From Propionibacteriales bacterium (GTDB lineage: Bacteria > Actinomycetota > Actinomycetes > Propionibacteriales > Nocardioidaceae): a stretch of DNA of 33,409 bases. Every line of letters starts with the position of its first letter. The first letter of the stretch is position 1. The position numbers and the translations under genes are program-made. The notes under the pieces are model-generated. The model did no database searches. It saw only the letters and a program-made list of their open reading frames with translations, and had not been told where the DNA came from. Positions 1 through 14,005 of this stretch are shown here, piece after piece. The stretch covers positions 1 through 33,409 of the forward strand of contig WHTJ01000050.1 of assembly GCA_009377795.1 (NCBI GenBank), read 5' to 3'.

Positions 1-205
1 GGTTGGTCGGCACCGAGGAGTCGAGGGTTCCGAGTACCCGGTTGTGGAACCGGATGAACGCCAGATGGGTCTGCGCCACGGCGAGGTTCTCGTCGTTGCG
101 ATGATCCGGAACCAGTGCCTTTCGCCTCTCCGCCGGCGTGTCGCCGGTGCCGACCCGAGGCAGGTCGAAGCCCGTGCGGGCCTGGTCGCTGCCGATGAGG
201 CAGGG
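1..205 (-). pseudogene. Fragment of animal-type heme peroxidase, truncated at both ends
   Basis: Read on the minus strand, this stretch is open and encodes a peptide with segments ARTGFDLPRVGTG, PDHRNDENLAVAQTH and LAFIRFHNRVL. The RNDENL...Q.H..F.RFHN pattern is characteristic of bacterial members of the animal heme peroxidase family (PF03098), which oxidise small substrates with peroxide. The fragment runs off the left edge. Its 5' side ends abruptly near 200-216, where the plus strand becomes recognisable argininosuccinate-lyase sequence, so neither gene has its N-terminus. No start codon or upstream part is visible. The family is inferred from the motif only; confidence in the peptide being real coding sequence is good, in the exact end point low. 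Confidence 0.6.
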
Positions 206-1357
206 CGGATCGCCTTCCGGCTCGCGCTGCGCGATCAGCTGCTGGATCTGCGTGCGGCGGTCGCCGGATTCGGGGCGACGGTCGCGCGCCGTGGGGCGGA
301 GCATGCCGAGACGTTGTGGGCGGACTCGACGTACCTTCAGCCCGCGCAGCCCTCGACGTTCGGGCACTACCTGGGTGGCTTCGCCGAACAGGCGGTACGC
401 CACCTCGGCCGCATCACCGCGGCGTACGATCTCGCGAACGTCTCCCCCGCCGGCGCCGGCGGGGTGGGCGGCACCCGGCTGCCACTGGACCTGGCCCGGA
501 TCGCGGAGCTGCTCGGATTCGCCGCCGTGGGACAGCAGACCCGGGACGCGATGTGGTCGACCGACGCCCTGGTCGACGCCGTGACGGCCGCGAGTCAGAG
601 CGTGCTTACCGTCGACCAGCTGGCCGAGGATCTGGAGGTCTTCGCCAGCCCGGCGTTCGACTACGTCGCGCTGGACGCGTCACTGTGCCGGGCCAGCGTC
701 CTCATGCCCCAGAAGCGCAATCCGTACGCGCTCGCCGTGCTCCGCGGTGGCACCGGCACCCTGCTCGGCCGGCTAGGCGGACTGCTCACCACCGGCCGGA
801 CGCCGTCCGCGCGTACCGACAACTGGCTCTACGCGTACGGCGAGGTGACCGAGGCGCTCGGACTCGCGGATCGGCTGGTACGCCTCGGCACCGCCGTGGC
901 GAACGGCCTGCGGCCGAACGCCGACGTACTGCGCGAATGGGCCGGCATGCACCATGTCGGCGCGACGGACCTCGCCGAGGACATCGCGGTCCAGTGCCGA
1001 CTGGACTACCGCACCGCCTACCGGGTCGTCGGCCGGGCGGTCGCCACCGCAGGAGAGCGCGGCGACCCCGAACTGACTGCCTCCGCGGTCAGCGCCGCCG
1101 CCGAAGCGCTCACCGGATCGCCCTTGTCGGTCCCGCCCGCGCTGCTTGCCGCCGCTCTCGACCCGGCGATGACGGCGACCGCCAGGAACGGCACCGGAGG
1201 CGCGAGCCCGGACCGGGTCCGCGAGCACGCGCAGGCGGTACGCCGACGCGTCGACGACGCGAGTCGCTGGAACGTCGACCAGCGAGCCCGGATCGGCGGG
1301 TCCGAGAATGCCCTGCTCGATCCCGCTCGCGCGCTCCTCCGCACGAATCAGGAGTGA
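44..1357 (+). CDS. Argininosuccinate lyase/fumarase superfamily protein, N-terminally truncated or chimeric
   Basis: Homology to the aspartase/fumarase superfamily begins only around base 210 (GRIAFRLALRDQ) and continues through a conserved stretch with ADSTYLQPAQPSTFGHYL, NVSPAGAGG and the superfamily signature SVLMPQKRNP, to a normal C-terminus. Argininosuccinate lyase cleaves argininosuccinate to arginine and fumarate; divergent paralogues act on other substrates, and arginine-pathway neighbours are absent here. The open frame starts with GTG at 44, but the first ~55 residues are the antisense of a heme peroxidase segment and not lyase sequence. About 100 residues of the usual N-terminal domain, with part of the active site, are therefore missing. 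The stop overlaps the end of the convergent amidohydrolase by 10 bases. Probably a non-functional fragment or an assembly chimera. Confidence 0.75.
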   Translation: MEPDERQMGLRHGEVLVVAMIRNQCLSPLRRRVAGADPRQVEARAGLVAADEAGRIAFRLALRDQLLDLRAAVAGFGATVARRGAEHAETLWADSTYLQPAQPSTFGHYLGGFAEQAVRHLGRITAAYDLANVSPAGAGGVGGTRLPLDLARIAELLGFAAVGQQTRDAMWSTDALVDAVTAASQSVLTVDQLAEDLEVFASPAFDYVALDASLCRASVLMPQKRNPYALAVLRGGTGTLLGRLGGLLTTGRTPSARTDNWLYAYGEVTEALGLADRLVRLGTAVANGLRPNADVLREWAGMHHVGATDLAEDIAVQCRLDYRTAYRVVGRAVATAGERGDPELTASAVSAAAEALTGSPLSVPPALLAAALDPAMTATARNGTGGASPDRVREHAQAVRRRVDDASRWNVDQRARIGGSENALLDPARALLRTNQE

Positions 1358-2512: not shown

Positions 2513-2986
2513 CTACGCTTGGAGGCGCCGGAGCGCCTCGATCGCGTGGGAGAAGTCTGGCACCTCCTCAGCATTGTCGGTGACCCAGCGGTATCGGACC
2601 ACGCCGTCGGTATCGATGAGGAAGACCGAGCGTTTCGCCAAGCCCTCATGGCCCTTCCAGACGTCGTACCGCACCCCGTAGCTGGCAGCGACCTTTCCGT
2701 TCCAGTCCGACAGTAGCGGGAAGGCAACCCCGAGCTCCCGCGCGAAGCGCTGTTGGGAAAAGATCGCGGTGACCGCGACGGCAACGATCTCGCCGCCAAG
2801 GGCGCGGATCTCCGCCGCCGACTGTCCCAACTGGGACAACTCTCCCGTTCATATGCCGCCAAAATCGAAGACATAGAAATGGACTAGCACGGGTCCGCGC
2901 TCCCGAAGCTCGGCGAGACTCACCGACTCGTCGAACGTGCGGCGCAGGGTGAAGTCCGGGGCGTGATCACCGACATCAATCAGCAT
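2513..2986 (-). CDS. Peroxiredoxin with in-frame UGA at the catalytic position (probable selenoprotein)
   Basis: Translating from ATG at 2986 gives MLIDVGDHAPDFTLRRTF, then VLVHFYVFDFGGI, an in-frame UGA (2851-2849, codon 46), then TGELSQLGQ and a complete AhpC/TSA-type thioredoxin fold ending at a TAG: 157 residues, normal for the family. FYVFDFGGI-U-TGELSQL aligns column for column with the family pattern FYPKDFTPGC-TxE, so UGA occupies the peroxidatic cysteine. There is no cysteine anywhere else in the protein. A perfect hairpin follows the UGA (see 2823-2838). The start is fixed by a TGATG overlap with the ecfT stop, implying translational coupling. Peroxiredoxins reduce peroxides in the cytosol; a Sec form would be a 1-Sec enzyme. 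Automated calling would give only a 108-residue piece from TTG at 2839, without a catalytic residue. The alternative is a nonsense mutation of a Cys codon. Confidence 0.72.
2823..2838 (-). promoter_or_regulatory. SECIS-like hairpin after the peroxiredoxin UGA
   Basis: On the minus strand, TGTCCC-AGTT-GGGACA forms a perfect 6-bp stem with a 4-base loop, plus a flanking T-G wobble pair. Counting from the base after UGA, the stem starts at nt 11 and the loop is at nt 17-20, with G as the second loop base and GU inside it. Known bacterial SECIS elements are hairpins directly 3' of UGA with the apical loop roughly 16-37 nt away and a G early in the loop; this fits. It lies inside the coding frame, as in bacterial formate dehydrogenase genes. 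SelB recognition is inferred. Confidence 0.6.
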
Positions 2987-3804
2987 CAGCCGAGATTCCA
3001 ACTCATCGTTGCGGAGTTAAATTGCCAGACGAGATAGGCGATAGAGAGCACGAAGAACGCCCAGCCGAAGATTTTACCGCCGGTGCTCTCCGGCGGCGTG
3101 CGCATGTAGGTGCGCGTCTTGTGCGCACCGTATCCGCGGATGTCGAGCGCCATCGCCTGGGTTTGCCCGTTGCGCAAGCCGAGGACGAGCATGGCGAACG
3201 CGAGATGCTTGAGGCGGTGGAATTTGCGCGTGACCGGGTTCATGTCCTGACCGAGGTCACGGATCCGCTGCGTTACCGAGATATCCCTGCCAAGCTGCAA
3301 GAACGAAGGGAACAACACAAGCCCAAGCACGGGTGCGTGCACTAGGCGGTAGTCGAACCCCCGCCGCGAGAATCGTTCCACCAGGTCTAGCGGATGGGTG
3401 GTGAACGCGAACATCAGGCCCGATATGCCGATGGCCATGAAACGGAGACCGAGCAAGGCGCCGAACCCGAGCGCCGCCCACGTAAGGTCCTTTATTGGGG
3501 TGTGTAGGGCGATGTCGGCGGAGCCGGCTGTCGCCTGGCCTCCGTAAAAGAACGGGAAGACAATGGCGAGGATGATGACGAACGGCACCAGCACCTTGCC
3601 GAAGGTCCAGTACATGCGCAACGGGACTCCGCTGAGGAACGCGGCGCAGAAGAACGTGAAGACGAACAATCCCACACTGACCCACAGGTTGGTGTTGAAG
3701 ATCGCGACGAAGGACACTCCGAGGATGAAGAGGGTCTTCGCGAGCGGATCCATCCTGTGAAAGGGAGAGTTGGCCTCTTTATAGGCGAGCTCGAGATCGG
3801 CCAC
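2986..3804 (-). CDS. ecfT: ECF transporter T component, transmembrane coupling protein
   Basis: A 272-residue integral membrane protein of the CbiQ/EcfT family, which couples paired ATPases to a substrate-binding S protein. Visible: N-terminal NSPFHRMDPLAKTLF typical of EcfT, several hydrophobic segments (about residues 20-60, 65-90, 110-135), a cytoplasmic stretch with RRGFDYR and SVTQRIRDLGQD, an ALDIRGYGAHKTRT coupling-helix motif, and a final membrane segment. The start is GTG at 3804 because AAGGAGG lies six bases upstream; longer upstream extensions are antisense-like sequence over the ATPase gene. The gene overlaps the ATPase 3' end by 26 bases and its stop overlaps the peroxiredoxin start (TGATG), so all three are probably translated in a coupled manner. 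Confidence 0.88.
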   Translation of the reverse strand: MADLELAYKEANSPFHRMDPLAKTLFILGVSFVAIFNTNLWVSVGLFVFTFFCAAFLSGVPLRMYWTFGKVLVPFVIILAIVFPFFYGGQATAGSADIALHTPIKDLTWAALGFGALLGLRFMAIGISGLMFAFTTHPLDLVERFSRRGFDYRLVHAPVLGLVLFPSFLQLGRDISVTQRIRDLGQDMNPVTRKFHRLKHLAFAMLVLGLRNGQTQAMALDIRGYGAHKTRTYMRTPPESTGGKIFGWAFFVLSIAYLVWQFNSATMSWNLG

Positions 3805-5545
3805 CGATCGCCTCCTTGATTCGTGCCCGTGCCTCGTCGGCATCCAACAAGGGCGTGCCGAGCAGCTGCCGCGAGAACTCGAACAGTGGGGGAACGCGCA
3901 GTTTCGCCCGCGCCATGACATCCGGGTTACTAAACAACTCTGACGGCGTCCCGTCGAAGATCGTCTCGCCCTCGCACATCGCCACACAGCGGTCAGCGTG
4001 TTGCGCAACCAACCGCATGTCGTGGGTGATGAACGTCACCGCCGCGCCCTGGCGGGCCAGCTCCCGCAACAACCCCATGAGTCGCTGGGCCTGCTGGTGG
4101 TCCTGACCGAAGGTCGGTTCGTCGAGCACGACAACGTCAGGTTCCCCGATGACCATGCACGCGACCGACAAGCGGCGTTTCTGCCCTTGGCTGAGGACAT
4201 ACGGGCTCGCGTCCCGCCGGTCCCAGAGCCGGACGCTACGCAGGAACGTCTCCACCCGTTCATCGATCTCCTCATCTGGCACCTTGAGTGCCTTGAGGCC
4301 GTGGGCTACTTCATCTCTCACGCTGCGCCGGATGAACTGCTTCTCCGGCACTTGGAAGATGAACGCCACCCGCCTGACGAGGTCGGCGAACCGGTATCGG
4401 GTTGTCGGGGTGCCCTCGACGAGCACCTCGCCAGAGGTTGGCCGGTAGATTCCGTTGAACTGCTGGGCCAGCGTCGATTTGCCCGAGCCGTTCTGGCCCA
4501 CGATCGCCAACAGCTCTCCCCTGCGGACCTCCAGGTTGACGTTGCGCAGCACGTCGGCCTTGGACGGGTAGGAAAAGCACAGGTCGCGAACCTCGATGAC
4601 GACCTCACCTGGGGTCTGCTCGGTAACGACGGATCTCGGCTCCGGCTCGCCACCCGTCGGCCTCGGCATCCCTGTGGCCGTGAGCGTCTCGACGAGCTCT
4701 TTGCCGTTGAGCGGTACGAACGGCAGCTCGACCCCGTCGCCCTGCAGCTCCAGCCCGACCTCGCAGGCTTGAGGAATCCACAGACCCATCCGGTCGCGCA
4801 CGTCCAGCCCGTGCTCCGCCATGAACTCCCGCGGTTGCTTCGGGCCGTGTACGGTCTGGCCGTCGACCAACAGGACCTTGTTGACCTGGTCGTACACGGT
4901 GTCCACCTCATGCTCGACGACCATCAACGTCACGTCTCCGCGCTCTCGGACGCGGTTGATCGCGTCCAGCACCTCGTGCGTCCCGACCGGGTCGAGATTG
5001 GAGGTCGGTTCGTCGAGGATCAGCACCCGGGGCTCCATGGCAAGCATGGACGCGAGAGCCACCCGCTGCTTCTCCCCACCCGAAAGCTTGGTCGTCGAGC
5101 GCTCCCGAAAACCGGTCAAACCCACGAGGTCGAGCGCGGTGTCAATACGCCGGTGGATCTCGTCGCGCGGGAAGAGATAGTTCTCGAGGGCGAACCCGAT
5201 CTCCTCCTCGACGGTCAGCGTGACGATCTGGTCCTCGGGATTCTGGAAGAGCATGTTCACGGTGGCGAAGCGCTCGCCCCGGTCGAGTTCTCGCCGGTTG
5301 ATCAGGCCTTTGGTGGCGTGGTTGACGAGGATTCGGCCTTCGTTGCGTCCTCCGAAATAGTCCGGATAGATGCCGACCAGGTTGAGTGCCAGCGTGGACT
5401 TGCCCGAGCCGCTCTTCCCAAGGATGAGCAGAAAATCGCCTTGTTCGACTTCGAACGATACGTCGCGGAGCGCGAGCGCTTCGCGATCCTCGGAAAGCTC
5501 GAACCAGAAGCTGTAGTCCTCGACGACCATGATCGGGTCGGCCAT
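3779..5545 (-). CDS. ECF transporter double ATP-binding protein
   Basis: A 588-residue fusion of two ABC ATPase domains, as in YkoD/EcfAA'-type fused energising subunits. Domain 1 (about 1-250): Walker A GKSGSGKST, signature LSGGEKQR, Walker B LILDEPTS, followed by H-loop VVEHE. A linker of about 60 residues follows. Domain 2 (about 310-560): Walker A GQNGSGKST, signature LSQGQKRR, Walker B VVLDEPTF and H-loop ITHD. Both sites look competent. ATG at 5545 is preferred since AGGAG sits seven bases before it; an ATG at 5560 is possible. It powers uptake with the T protein downstream and the S-like protein upstream. The 116-base gap to the upstream gene holds degenerate repeats and a strong hairpin that could tune its expression relative to the S protein. 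Confidence 0.9.
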   Translation of the reverse strand: MADPIMVVEDYSFWFELSEDREALALRDVSFEVEQGDFLLILGKSGSGKSTLALNLVGIYPDYFGGRNEGRILVNHATKGLINRRELDRGERFATVNMLFQNPEDQIVTLTVEEEIGFALENYLFPRDEIHRRIDTALDLVGLTGFRERSTTKLSGGEKQRVALASMLAMEPRVLILDEPTSNLDPVGTHEVLDAINRVRERGDVTLMVVEHEVDTVYDQVNKVLLVDGQTVHGPKQPREFMAEHGLDVRDRMGLWIPQACEVGLELQGDGVELPFVPLNGKELVETLTATGMPRPTGGEPEPRSVVTEQTPGEVVIEVRDLCFSYPSKADVLRNVNLEVRRGELLAIVGQNGSGKSTLAQQFNGIYRPTSGEVLVEGTPTTRYRFADLVRRVAFIFQVPEKQFIRRSVRDEVAHGLKALKVPDEEIDERVETFLRSVRLWDRRDASPYVLSQGQKRRLSVACMVIGEPDVVVLDEPTFGQDHQQAQRLMGLLRELARQGAAVTFITHDMRLVAQHADRCVAMCEGETIFDGTPSELFSNPDVMARAKLRVPPLFEFSRQLLGTPLLDADEARARIKEAIGGRSRARL

Positions 5546-10780: not shown

Positions 10781-10952
10781 GATCCGCGCGCGGTTGACTC
10801 GATCCGCGACGCTGACGAGCGGCGACGATCCTGCTTGATCTCTGTCGCGGTGGCGTACATCTGCTGGTTCCCGGGACAGGCGGCCTCTGTGCGTGTCACG
10901 CTCCTTGTTGACGCAGACGGACGTCCGCGGTCACCTGGGGGGAGCCGATCCG

Positions 10953-12611
10953 ATGAGCAGACCAGCCATGCTGACGGTCGACGACGATCCCCTGGTCTCG
11001 GCAGCGATCTCCCGTGACCTGCGCTCCCACTACGGTGCCGACTATCGCATCGTGCAGGCGACGTCGGGGGCCGACGGGCTGGCCGTACTGACCGAACTGG
11101 CCCTGCGCAACCAACCCGTCGCGCTGATCGCCTGCGACCAGCGGATGCCGGAGATGACGGGCATCGAGATGCTCGAACGGGCGCGCACCACGGCTCCGGG
11201 CGCCAAGTGCCTGCTGCTCACCGCCTATGCCGACACCGACGTCGCCATCAACGCGATCAACGACATCGGACTCGATTACTACTTGCTCAAGCCGTGGGAT
11301 CCACCGGACGAGCGGTTGTACCCCGCCGTCGACGACCTGCTCGGCGACTGGTGGCGGGCCAACCCGGAGCAGACCTCGCAGGTGCGTGTCGTGGGGCACC
11401 GGTGGTCCGACCGAAGTCACGACGTGAAGACGTTCCTGGCCCGGAACCACGTCCCTTATCGCTGGTACGACATCGAGCGCGACTCCGAGGCCCAGCGACT
11501 GAGCGACCTTGCCCAGGCGACACCGACCGATCTGCCGCTGGTGCTCGTACCCGAAGGAGAGACGCTCCGCTCGCCGTCGACGCTCGATCTCGCCGGAGCC
11601 CTCGGCCTGCGTACGAACACCGAACAGCGTCTGTACGACGTCTGCATCGTGGGGAGCGGCCCGGCCGGCCTGGCCGCCGCGGTGTACGCGGCGTCGGAAG
11701 GCTTGAGCACCGTCGTCGTCGAACGCGAGGCGCCGGGCGGTCAGGCCGGTCAGAGTGCGGCGATCGAGAACTACCTCGGGTTCCCCAAGGGGCTGACTGG
11801 CTCAGACCTGACCCAGCGCGCAGTCGCCCAGGTCAGTCGCTTCGGCGCTGAGATGGTGCTCGCGCGCGACGTCGTCGGTATCCAGACCCGCGGCCCTGTC
11901 CACGCCGTACTGTTCGAAGGATCGGGAGAGATCGAGACCCGAGCGCTGATTGTGGCCACCGGTGTGTCCTACCGGCGCCTGGACGCGGCGGGCCTCGCCG
12001 AGCTGACCGGCCGGGGTGTCTACTACGGAGCAACCGCCAGCGAGGCGAGCGAGTGTCAGGGCGACGTCGTGTACGTCGTCGGTGGCGCCAACTCCGCAGG
12101 GCAGGCTGCGCTCAGCCTGGCCGGATTCGCCGAACGAGTGGTGCTCGTGGTCCGGGCACAAACCCTCAACGAAACGATGTCGCGATACCTGATCGAGAGG
12201 ATCGCGTCCACCGCCAACATCGAGGTGCGATACCGCACCGAGGTGGTGGCATGTCGTGGCGACGGTCACCTCGAGGCGCTCACCCTCGCCGATCGAGACT
12301 CCGGCGTCCAGGAGGAGGTCACGTCGAGCTGGTTGTTCGTCTTCATCGGCGCCTCACCACGCACCGAGTGGCTCGGCCCCGAGGTGGTCCGTGACGACAA
12401 GGGGTTCATCGTCACGGGTCCCGATCTGCTCACCCCCGTCCATGCCAAGCACTGGGCACTTCCCCGGGCGCCGTTCGCGCTCGAGGCGAGCGTGCCCGGG
12501 GTCTTCGCGGCGGGCGATGTCCGGCTGGACTCCATGAAGCGGGTCGCGTCGGCCGTCGGTGAGGGCGCGATGTCGGTCTACCTCGTGCACCGCTATCTGG
12601 CGACGATCTGA
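10953..12611 (+). CDS. Response-regulator receiver / Trx-like / thioredoxin-reductase-like fusion
   Basis: 552 residues, three parts. Receiver domain (1-130): acidic pocket VDDD, phospho-acceptor Asp62 in ACDQRMPEMTG, Thr90 and Lys113 in LLKPWD. A short thioredoxin/glutaredoxin-like segment (~145-220) has RWSDRSHDVKTFLARN but no CxxC. The FAD/NAD(P) reductase domain (~227-552) has GSGPAG (234-239), GGQAGQS, ATGV, a second Rossmann VVGGANSAG and GVFAAGDVR. The thioredoxin-reductase active site CATC is replaced by GATA (359-362), so dithiol chemistry is lost and the module may sense flavin/NAD(P)H state. The start is ATG 10953, with GGGGGAG eight bases upstream. Its TGA overlaps the kinase ATG (TGATG), marking them as a cognate pair. 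Confidence 0.88.
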   Translation: MSRPAMLTVDDDPLVSAAISRDLRSHYGADYRIVQATSGADGLAVLTELALRNQPVALIACDQRMPEMTGIEMLERARTTAPGAKCLLLTAYADTDVAINAINDIGLDYYLLKPWDPPDERLYPAVDDLLGDWWRANPEQTSQVRVVGHRWSDRSHDVKTFLARNHVPYRWYDIERDSEAQRLSDLAQATPTDLPLVLVPEGETLRSPSTLDLAGALGLRTNTEQRLYDVCIVGSGPAGLAAAVYAASEGLSTVVVEREAPGGQAGQSAAIENYLGFPKGLTGSDLTQRAVAQVSRFGAEMVLARDVVGIQTRGPVHAVLFEGSGEIETRALIVATGVSYRRLDAAGLAELTGRGVYYGATASEASECQGDVVYVVGGANSAGQAALSLAGFAERVVLVVRAQTLNETMSRYLIERIASTANIEVRYRTEVVACRGDGHLEALTLADRDSGVQEEVTSSWLFVFIGASPRTEWLGPEVVRDDKGFIVTGPDLLTPVHAKHWALPRAPFALEASVPGVFAAGDVRLDSMKRVASAVGEGAMSVYLVHRYLATI

Positions 12612-14005
12612 TGCGCGTCGACGACCTCCGCTCACTCAGCCTCTTCGACGGTCTGAACGACGACCAGCTTGCCGAGCTGATCGATGTCGGTACGGAGGTA
12701 CGCATCGAGCCCGGGGTCGACCTGTTTCACGAAGGTGAGCATGCGGATTTCTGGTGGGTGCTCGTCGACGGTGCGATCGACCTCATGCGTCACGTCGGTC
12801 GCGAGCACACCGTGGTAGGGCGAATGGACGCACCGGGTCGCTGGGCCGGTGGATTCCGAGCGTGGGACGAGCACGGCGTCTATCTCGCGACCGGTAGAGG
12901 GGTAACCGGCGGGCGGGTGCTCCGGGTGTCAGCGGAAGCGTTGCGTGAGCGGTCTAATGCCTGGTTTCCGTTCGGCAGGCACCTCATCGAGGGGCTTTAC
13001 ACGACCGCGCGACGCATCGAGTCGACGGCGCGCCAGCGCGAGTCCCTCGTCGCTCTCGGCACGCTCTCGGCCGGCCTCATGCACGAGATCAACAATCCGG
13101 CGGCCGCCGCCACCCGAGCCGTCGACGCCCTCGAGGACGCCTGCACGACGCTGCTCTCGTCGCTCGGCCGGCTTGTCGACGACGAGATCTCGGTGCAGCA
13201 GTTCGGCGCCCTCGATGCCCTACGCCGTGAGATCGAGCCTCGGACGGGTGCCCTGGACCCACTGGAAATGGCCGACCACGAGGAGGCGCTGTCGTCCTGG
13301 CTGGTCCGCCACGGCGTCGAGCGCGCATGGGTCATCGCGCCACCGCTGGTGGCCGCCGGTGTGGACGTTCCCTGGTGCGAACGGGCCGCCACCGTGCTCC
13401 CGGGTTCGGCCTTGGAGCCGGGACTGGAATGGGTGGCGAGCACCTTCGCCATCGCCACGCTTCTCTCCGAGGTGAAGGTGTCGACCGGGCGCGTCTCCGA
13501 GCTCGTCGCCGCCGTCAAGTCCTACTCCCAGATGGACCGCGCGTCGATGCAGCACATCGCCGTGACAGACGGCCTCGAGAGCACCCTGGTCATGCTCGAG
13601 CACAAGCTCCGCGACGGTGTCACGGTCGTGCGTGACTTCGGCGCCGAGGTTCCCCGGATCGAGGCGTACGCCGGGGAGCTCAACCAGGTGTGGACCAACC
13701 TCATCGACAACGCCGTCGACGCGATGGACGGCGCCGGAACGCTCCGGCTGACCACCCGTGCTGACGGGGAAGTCGTCGTGGTCGACATCGGCGACACCGG
13801 TCCGGGCATGGCACCGTCGGTGGCGGCACGCGCCTTCGAGGCGTTCTACACGACCAAGGACGTGGGCAAGGGCACCGGTCTCGGCCTCGACATCGCGCGG
13901 CGCATCGTCGAGGACCGCCACGGCGGCACGATCAGCATCGACTCCCGACCCGGTGAGACGGTCCTGCGGGTCCGCCTGCCCGTGCGAGGGCACCAGCGTC
14001 GGTGA
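12611..14005 (+). CDS. cNMP-binding-domain histidine kinase
   Basis: 464 residues without membrane segments, so soluble. An N-terminal cyclic-nucleotide-binding-like beta-roll (about 1-125; SLFDGLNDDQLAEL, ...FWWVLVDGAIDL) is followed by a dimerisation helix with phospho-acceptor His158 in GLMHEINNPAAA, an insert of about 120 residues, and an ATPase domain with N-box LIDNAVDAM, G1 DTGPGM, F-box FEAFYTTK and G2 GTGLGL. HEINNP is typical of the NtrB-like HisKA group. It overlaps the preceding receiver/reductase gene by one base, so it is the likely phosphodonor for that receiver. The canonical Arg and Glu that bind cAMP phosphate are not evident, so the sensed ligand is open. Confidence 0.88.
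   Translation: MRVDDLRSLSLFDGLNDDQLAELIDVGTEVRIEPGVDLFHEGEHADFWWVLVDGAIDLMRHVGREHTVVGRMDAPGRWAGGFRAWDEHGVYLATGRGVTGGRVLRVSAEALRERSNAWFPFGRHLIEGLYTTARRIESTARQRESLVALGTLSAGLMHEINNPAAAATRAVDALEDACTTLLSSLGRLVDDEISVQQFGALDALRREIEPRTGALDPLEMADHEEALSSWLVRHGVERAWVIAPPLVAAGVDVPWCERAATVLPGSALEPGLEWVASTFAIATLLSEVKVSTGRVSELVAAVKSYSQMDRASMQHIAVTDGLESTLVMLEHKLRDGVTVVRDFGAEVPRIEAYAGELNQVWTNLIDNAVDAMDGAGTLRLTTRADGEVVVVDIGDTGPGMAPSVAARAFEAFYTTKDVGKGTGLGLDIARRIVEDRHGGTISIDSRPGETVLRVRLPVRGHQRR

Follow-up and report, generated by a model that had tools for sequence, protein, structure and literature searches.

In the window, that is, the whole stretch of 33,409 nucleotides analysed in this study, which comes from an uncultured actinobacterium, a reverse-strand gene was found to encode a protein of the AhpC/TSA superfamily in which an in-frame UGA at codon 46 occupies the position of the peroxidatic cysteine. 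The best explanation overall, to which we assign a probability of about 0.9, is that the product is a selenoprotein with selenocysteine (Sec) at position 46, the insertion of which would be guided by a hairpin following the UGA, and that it most likely reduces peroxide. Sec-containing peroxiredoxins (Prx, PF00578) are listed in passages of PMC13188914, PMC1794560, PMC1088965, and PMC2398784; the present protein is of this known kind, but with an active site unlike the motif described for it. The gene, its proposed Sec codon, and the gene upstream are located as follows.

2513..2986, reverse strand: coding sequence of the Sec-peroxiredoxin, 157 residues with Sec46, from ATG at 2986 to a TAG that ends at 2513; Pfam AhpC-TSA.
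2849..2851, reverse strand: the TGA of codon 46, in frame and proposed to encode Sec at the peroxidatic position.
2986..3816, reverse strand: ecfT-like gene (CbiQ; PF02361, 72.4 bits), the TGA stop of which overlaps the ATG of the Sec-peroxiredoxin.

A sequence-only reading of this DNA had placed a single frame on the reverse strand from 2986 to 2513 with a UGA at codon 46, and its coordinates, ATG, TAG, and TGA (2851-2849) were all confirmed. The Pfam AhpC-TSA match spans the UGA with 98.4 bits against a gathering score of 26, which puts the protein in the AhpC/TSA (peroxiredoxin) superfamily, and the Pfam Redoxin match also spans it (70.5 bits). The UGA had been read as lying on the peroxidatic Cys; the alignment with the solved chain 2cx3 agrees, and the codon is TGC in 52 of the 52 Cys homologues examined. 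As had also been claimed, the read-through translation contains no Cys besides the recoded codon 46, and the TGATG overlap with ecfT was found in the sequence, the upstream gene being of the CbiQ/EcfT type; the two genes are presumably co-translated. Both flanks of the UGA had been described as well conserved, which held for the Pfam match across it and for purifying selection on either side, but not for the residues just before it, where Val39 and Gly43 replace Pro and Ser/Thr. Purifying selection acts on both sides of the UGA and continues beyond it: dN/dS between the window gene and its relative L021 was 0.12/1.13 over the 41 codons 5' of the UGA and 0.17/0.87 over the 111 codons 3' of it. 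An AlphaFold model of the protein (three sequences) had a mean pLDDT of 62.9, with residues 74-116 below 50. Since gene callers stop at UGA, annotation misses the protein's catalytic half.

Subsequently, codon 46 was compared among homologues. TGA was found in seven distinct genes, namely the window gene and six others, and the in-frame UGA is thus aligned with the Cys of the homologues, as expected for a bacterial selenoprotein. The sequence-only reading had named random residues at this position in close relatives as evidence against Sec; the position is not random, with TGA throughout the seven-gene clade and TGC in the other 52. The scan of named genomes yielded two relatives with TGA at codon 46, in Streptosporangiales bacterium Dino_bin12 (L021, 77%) and Nitriliruptorales bacterium Dino_bin30 (L022, 63%). 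Dino_bin12 is described in a passage of PMC8067395 as a bin from a Centrosaurus bone and mudstone metagenome, and Dino_bin30, judging from its name, comes from the same study. Genome searches added L081, L082 (family f57), L083 and L084 (family f67), and in each of these the codon is TGA; L080 (family f89) is the same locus as L022 and was left out of the clade counts and the tree, and L023 is the window itself. The seven genes span at least four families, that of the window (f1) included.

The Sec form is rare and patchy. It was found in 1 of the 58 relatives searched, 1 of 394 within the class (E <= 1e-24), 5 of 396 within the phylum (E <= 1e-28; the window and L083 both counted), and, for the classes to which G540 and G529 belong, 2 of 27 and 2 of 36, respectively; these search sets overlap one another. 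The 52 Cys rows, all actinobacterial, are the best matches with loci given (29 among relatives and 23 within the class); of more than 70 weaker matches from the search of relatives, two (L102 and L103, below) were read at codon 46. The Sec position was masked for a maximum-likelihood tree of these 52 rows and the 7 Sec rows, in which a branch with support of 100/99 set all the Sec rows apart from the rest. The window's genome also encodes a Cys homologue with an intact motif (L079), and the actinobacterial Cys homologues including L079 show 34-45% identity over equal length. Two genomes flagged with one TGA each (G003 and G017) were rejected as sources of Sec peroxiredoxins, because Cys is the peroxidatic residue at their loci (L102 and L103), the flagged TGA being the one that ends the frame; L072 (one TGA) and L066 (one TAG) were also rejected, codon 46 being TGC. 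The matches in the plasmid search were all below 60% identity (173 of 173 records).

The sequence-only reading had proposed a search of the source genome for selA, selB, selD, and tRNA-Sec, and all four were detected above their cut-offs in the draft assembly (4.58 Mb, 182 contigs, 96.8% complete). The scores were 74 bits for tRNA-Sec (cut-off 47), 438.7 bits for selA (cut-off 267.9), and 281.2 bits for selB (cut-off 242.25; the match, in a frame of 623 aa, covers only positions 2-350 of the 581 in the model), these three being neighbours on contig C39, and 383.7 bits for selD (cut-off 125) on contig C125. The anticodon of the tRNA-Sec was TCA according to ARAGORN, as in all 3 tRNA-Sec loci scanned. 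Because few of the 14 control genomes exceeded the same cut-offs (tRNA-Sec in 5, selA in 1, selB in 2, and selD in 2), these tests discriminate. Furthermore, tRNA-Sec was above the cut-off in six of the seven genomes with the Sec form. G529, the genome of L083, gave no tRNA-Sec match at E <= 1e-9 and is 97% complete; either a contig is missing there or Sec decoding is being lost, both being possible. At L083 itself (G529:C44:113938-114378) the TGA is kept and the hairpin is absent, as is a tRNA-Sec match from the genome. As a separate observation, second tRNA-Sec-like matches above the Rfam cut-off were seen at L055 (G058:C48:3061-3151, 49.8 bits) and L089 (G487:C21:40225-40313, 57.4 bits), each in a genome that also has a stronger tRNA-Sec.

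Other clients of this machinery were looked for in the window's genome. The formate dehydrogenase alpha-type matches, on contigs C16 (L098), C84 (L099), and C178 (L100) of G000, were without an in-frame stop, the best of them covering model positions 64-672 only; hence the main client of the Sec system is either not the usual one or was missed. A naive script scan of L094, L097, and L098 for more genes with in-frame UGA returned noise only.

A hairpin resembling a bacterial SECIS element (bSECIS) begins nine bases past the UGA.

2822..2839, reverse strand: bSECIS-like hairpin, with a 7-bp stem (2839-2833 with 2828-2822) and the loop AGUU (2832-2829).

Neither this hairpin nor the loss of the motif Pro and Ser/Thr described below was in the sequence-only reading. 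The bSECIS rules given in a passage of PMC13188914 call for a loop of 3-9 nt with G at one of the first two loop positions, a stem of 4-16 bp, a UGA-loop spacing of 16-37 nt, and an MFE of -7.5 kcal/mol or lower. The window hairpin conforms to them with a 4-nt loop (AGUU), a UGA-to-loop spacing of 16 nt, which is the lower limit, and -8.0 kcal/mol, its stem being counted in this test as 8 bp with a G-U end pair included. The rules were passed by 5 of the 7 Sec genes versus 8 of the 52 Cys genes. When the stem was examined at its fixed position, 7 of 7 pairs were formed in five of the seven Sec genes, whereas the Cys genes had 1 to 5 pairs of 7 and a complete stem in none of 52. The five complete stems are five different sequences, and both-sided (compensatory) changes were observed at 4 of the 7 stem pairs. 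In a shuffle test, 2 of 500 shuffles attained the paired fraction of the stem and 3 of 500 its covariation score; slid stem positions paired at 45-53%, compared with 87.8% at the actual position.

Part of the evidence is less favourable. Synonymous recoding completed the stem with probabilities of 0.022, 0.010, 0.096, 0.024, and 0.020 in the five complete-stem genes, and completion in 1-10% of trials per gene counts against the hairpin; the observed pairing was reached with probabilities of 0.185 in L084 and 0.89 in L083. The fold statistics of the window hairpin by itself were weak (z of -1.45 for 44 nt and -0.13 for 91 nt). When bases before the UGA were included in a piece of 48 nt, a different pairing was favoured. 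L083 has 2 of the 7 stem pairs and no qualifying hairpin, and L084 has 6 of 7 with a best energy of only -4.3. These two genes would need a different element, or L083 may be losing Sec decoding.

Next, the active-site residues were examined at the following codons.

2870..2872, reverse strand: codon of Val39, at the place of the motif Pro (-7) of 52/52 Cys homologues.
2858..2860, reverse strand: codon of Gly43, at the place of the motif Ser or Thr (-3) of 52/52 Cys homologues.
2630..2632, reverse strand: codon of Arg119, kept in all aligned Sec and Cys rows.

The motif PxxxS/TxxC is intact in all 52 Cys homologues. Among the seven Sec forms, the motif Pro is absent throughout, being replaced by Val in six and by Thr in L084, and the motif Ser/Thr is replaced by Gly in five, with Ser in L083 and L084. 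Sec therefore accompanies loss of the motif Pro across the clade and, in its main branch, loss of Ser/Thr as well. The window protein reads VxxxGxxU and so departs from the canonical PxxxS/TxxC(U); the aligned Arg119, which we take from knowledge of the family to be the catalytic Arg of the active site, is as in canonical peroxiredoxins. As for the published motif, passages of PMC1088965, PMC2398784, and PMC13188914 give TxxU for Sec peroxiredoxins and a passage of PMC1794560 gives T/SxxU, and a section of the 2026 review PMC13188914 describes PxxxTxxU as strongly conserved in Sec peroxiredoxins and as having an important part in hydrogen bonding to peroxide, a rule from which the present clade departs. 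No VxxxGxxU peroxiredoxin was found in the literature searched, and one may still be in print.

The protein was also compared with known systems. It resembles known Sec peroxiredoxins in the AhpC-TSA domain, the Sec in place of the peroxidatic Cys, and the bSECIS hairpin past the UGA, but differs from them in that the motif Pro has given way to Val or Thr in all seven members of the clade and Ser/Thr to Gly in five. The best NCBIfam match of the window protein was peroxi_PrxU (NF040737; 61.2 bits over residues 2-132), which is below the cut-off of 270, as are the PrxU scores of L081 (45.4 bits) and L083 (74.7 bits); an NCBIfam scan of these 3 of the 7 Sec proteins gave no match above any cut-off. 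The thiol peroxidase Prx-SUH (NF045827) is likewise a Sec thiol peroxidase, but the window protein scores 41.4 bits against its cut-off of 298, and its motif is given in a passage of PMC13188914 as CxxU, compared with GxxU here. The nearest solved chain was 2cx3 (E 1.9e-27), an archaeal Bcp/PrxQ protein, with 4gqc; the TGA falls on its peroxidatic Cys, whereas the further Cys that it carries five residues on corresponds to Ser51 of the window protein. Mycobacterial AhpE (5id2, E 4.1e-17; 4x0x) was also among the nearest solved chains, and we take AhpE to be a 1-Cys enzyme, without a resolving Cys, like the window protein. The actinobacterial Cys homologues differ from the Sec form in their intact PxxxS/TxxC, in TGC at codon 46 (52/52), and in the complete hairpin being found in 0/52.

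The insertion of Sec at the UGA, as the sequence-only reading had proposed, is supported by the sel machinery, the tRNA-Sec, the TGA clade, and the hairpin, and we infer from this genomic evidence that codon 46 is very probably decoded as Sec, the support being as strong as can be had from sequence by itself. Reading of the UGA as another amino acid, such as Trp or Cys through near-cognate decoding, appears highly improbable: the peroxidatic position, which is Cys in 52 of 52 homologues, would make no sense without a chalcogen residue, the genome has selA, selB, selD, and a tRNA-Sec with a TCA anticodon, the hairpin fits the bSECIS rules, and UGA serves as an ordinary stop in 8 of the 11 clear window genes. 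On the basis of the same 8 of 11 genes, UGA is not reassigned in the window's genome, and a reassigned UGA was rejected. A nonsense mutation, a decaying gene, or a base-call error could be imagined in a window taken from a 182-contig draft assembly, yet we regard such an origin as extremely improbable in view of the TGA at the same codon in six other distinct genes, the selection that persists beyond it, and the full sel machinery; a base-call error in particular is very unlikely because independent assemblies carry the same TGA. It is barely conceivable that the UGA is a true stop followed by a separate protein of 108 residues. The frame from TTG 2839 on which this would depend does exist and, as the sequence-only reading had pointed out, its 108-aa product would be missing the catalytic residue; it would also lack the first strands of the fold. 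Moreover, the hairpin stem begins at TTG 2839, and the start is not conserved, the corresponding codon being CTG in L081 and L021 and CTC in L082.

In the mechanism proposed here, tRNA-Sec and SelB would decode the UGA at codon 46 as selenocysteine, guided by the hairpin nine bases on. The selenol in place of the peroxidatic thiol would most likely reduce hydrogen peroxide or an organic hydroperoxide, attacking the peroxide to give a selenenic acid that would then be reduced by an outside thiol. Such a reductant would be required for the oxidised selenium because the protein is without Cys and thus without a resolving Cys; candidates in an actinobacterium are mycothiol/mycoredoxin or thioredoxin. 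The chemical steps of this selenol cycle are suggested by analogy with the superfamily. Peroxidase activity is predicted with less certainty than Sec insertion; the loss of Pro and Ser/Thr, as judged from the alignment, speaks against an ordinary peroxidase mechanism and the substrate may be another.

The neighbourhood of the gene bears on this point. The window cluster comprises a lyase, an amidohydrolase, the Sec-peroxiredoxin, ecfT, ecfA (a double ABC protein), a 210-aa protein, enoyl-CoA hydratase, aldehyde dehydrogenase, and a GntR regulator; the 210-aa protein has no Pfam match and was named ecfS from its position alone. The neighbourhood of L021 shares the peroxiredoxin, aldehyde dehydrogenase (79.5%), enoyl-CoA hydratase (63.8%), and the 210-aa protein (78.5%), and near L090 there are an amidohydrolase (38.8%) and, at a distance of about 6 kb, an aldehyde dehydrogenase (66.6%). 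L096 showed weaker matches only to the window genes, L091 showed GntR and ABC matches only, and L092 and L093 share with the window only the peroxiredoxin, a dihydrodipicolinate-synthase-family gene adjoining it. Because sharing varies in this way, a link with aldehyde or acyl-CoA catabolism is suggested by 3 of 6 neighbourhoods (window, L021, and L090; the amidohydrolase of L096 uncounted) and is not general. Elsewhere in the window, the lyase (44-1357, forward strand, cut by the window start) has XcbC of bacterial coenzyme M synthesis as its best NCBIfam match (310.3 bits against a cut-off of 575). A forward-strand gene at 10893-12611 joins a response-regulator receiver domain to a pyridine-nucleotide-disulphide oxidoreductase and is directly followed by a histidine-kinase-type ATPase gene (12611-14005, forward strand), which together form a redox-linked two-component pair.

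These neighbours, together with the motif, lend some weight to a selenoprotein that is no longer a peroxidase. Its selenol would instead target a different electrophile or serve as a thiol/selenol-disulphide oxidoreductase, perhaps in connection with the aldehyde dehydrogenase and enoyl-CoA hydratase. All seven Sec forms have lost the motif Pro and five of them Ser/Thr, both being kept in all the Cys homologues, an aldehyde dehydrogenase lies near the gene in the window, L021, and L090, and the motif-intact L079 is present in the same genome. We nevertheless consider this unlikely, though worth keeping in mind: Arg119 and the overall peroxiredoxin sequence are retained, L092 and L093 have no other gene in common with the window, and the motif Thr mainly activates the thiolate and the peroxide, so that a more reactive selenol may need it less. 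A peroxide-reducing Sec peroxiredoxin is the reading that we prefer.

With this reading, an actinobacterium whose formate dehydrogenase alpha matches lack an in-frame stop has in the Sec-peroxiredoxin a client of its Sec system. For the family, we tentatively raise the idea, which is perhaps somewhat less probable than its negation, that the switch to Sec freed the peroxiredoxin scaffold from its near-universal Pro and Ser/Thr and led to a different active site, VxxxGxxU, probably with a different substrate or mechanism. If so, the clade would be a natural test of which parts of the catalysis a peroxiredoxin requires solely on account of its sulphur nucleophile. Should the enzyme still reduce peroxide, selenium would make Pro and Ser/Thr dispensable; if peroxide is not the substrate, Sec would have been recruited to a new reaction on the peroxiredoxin fold.
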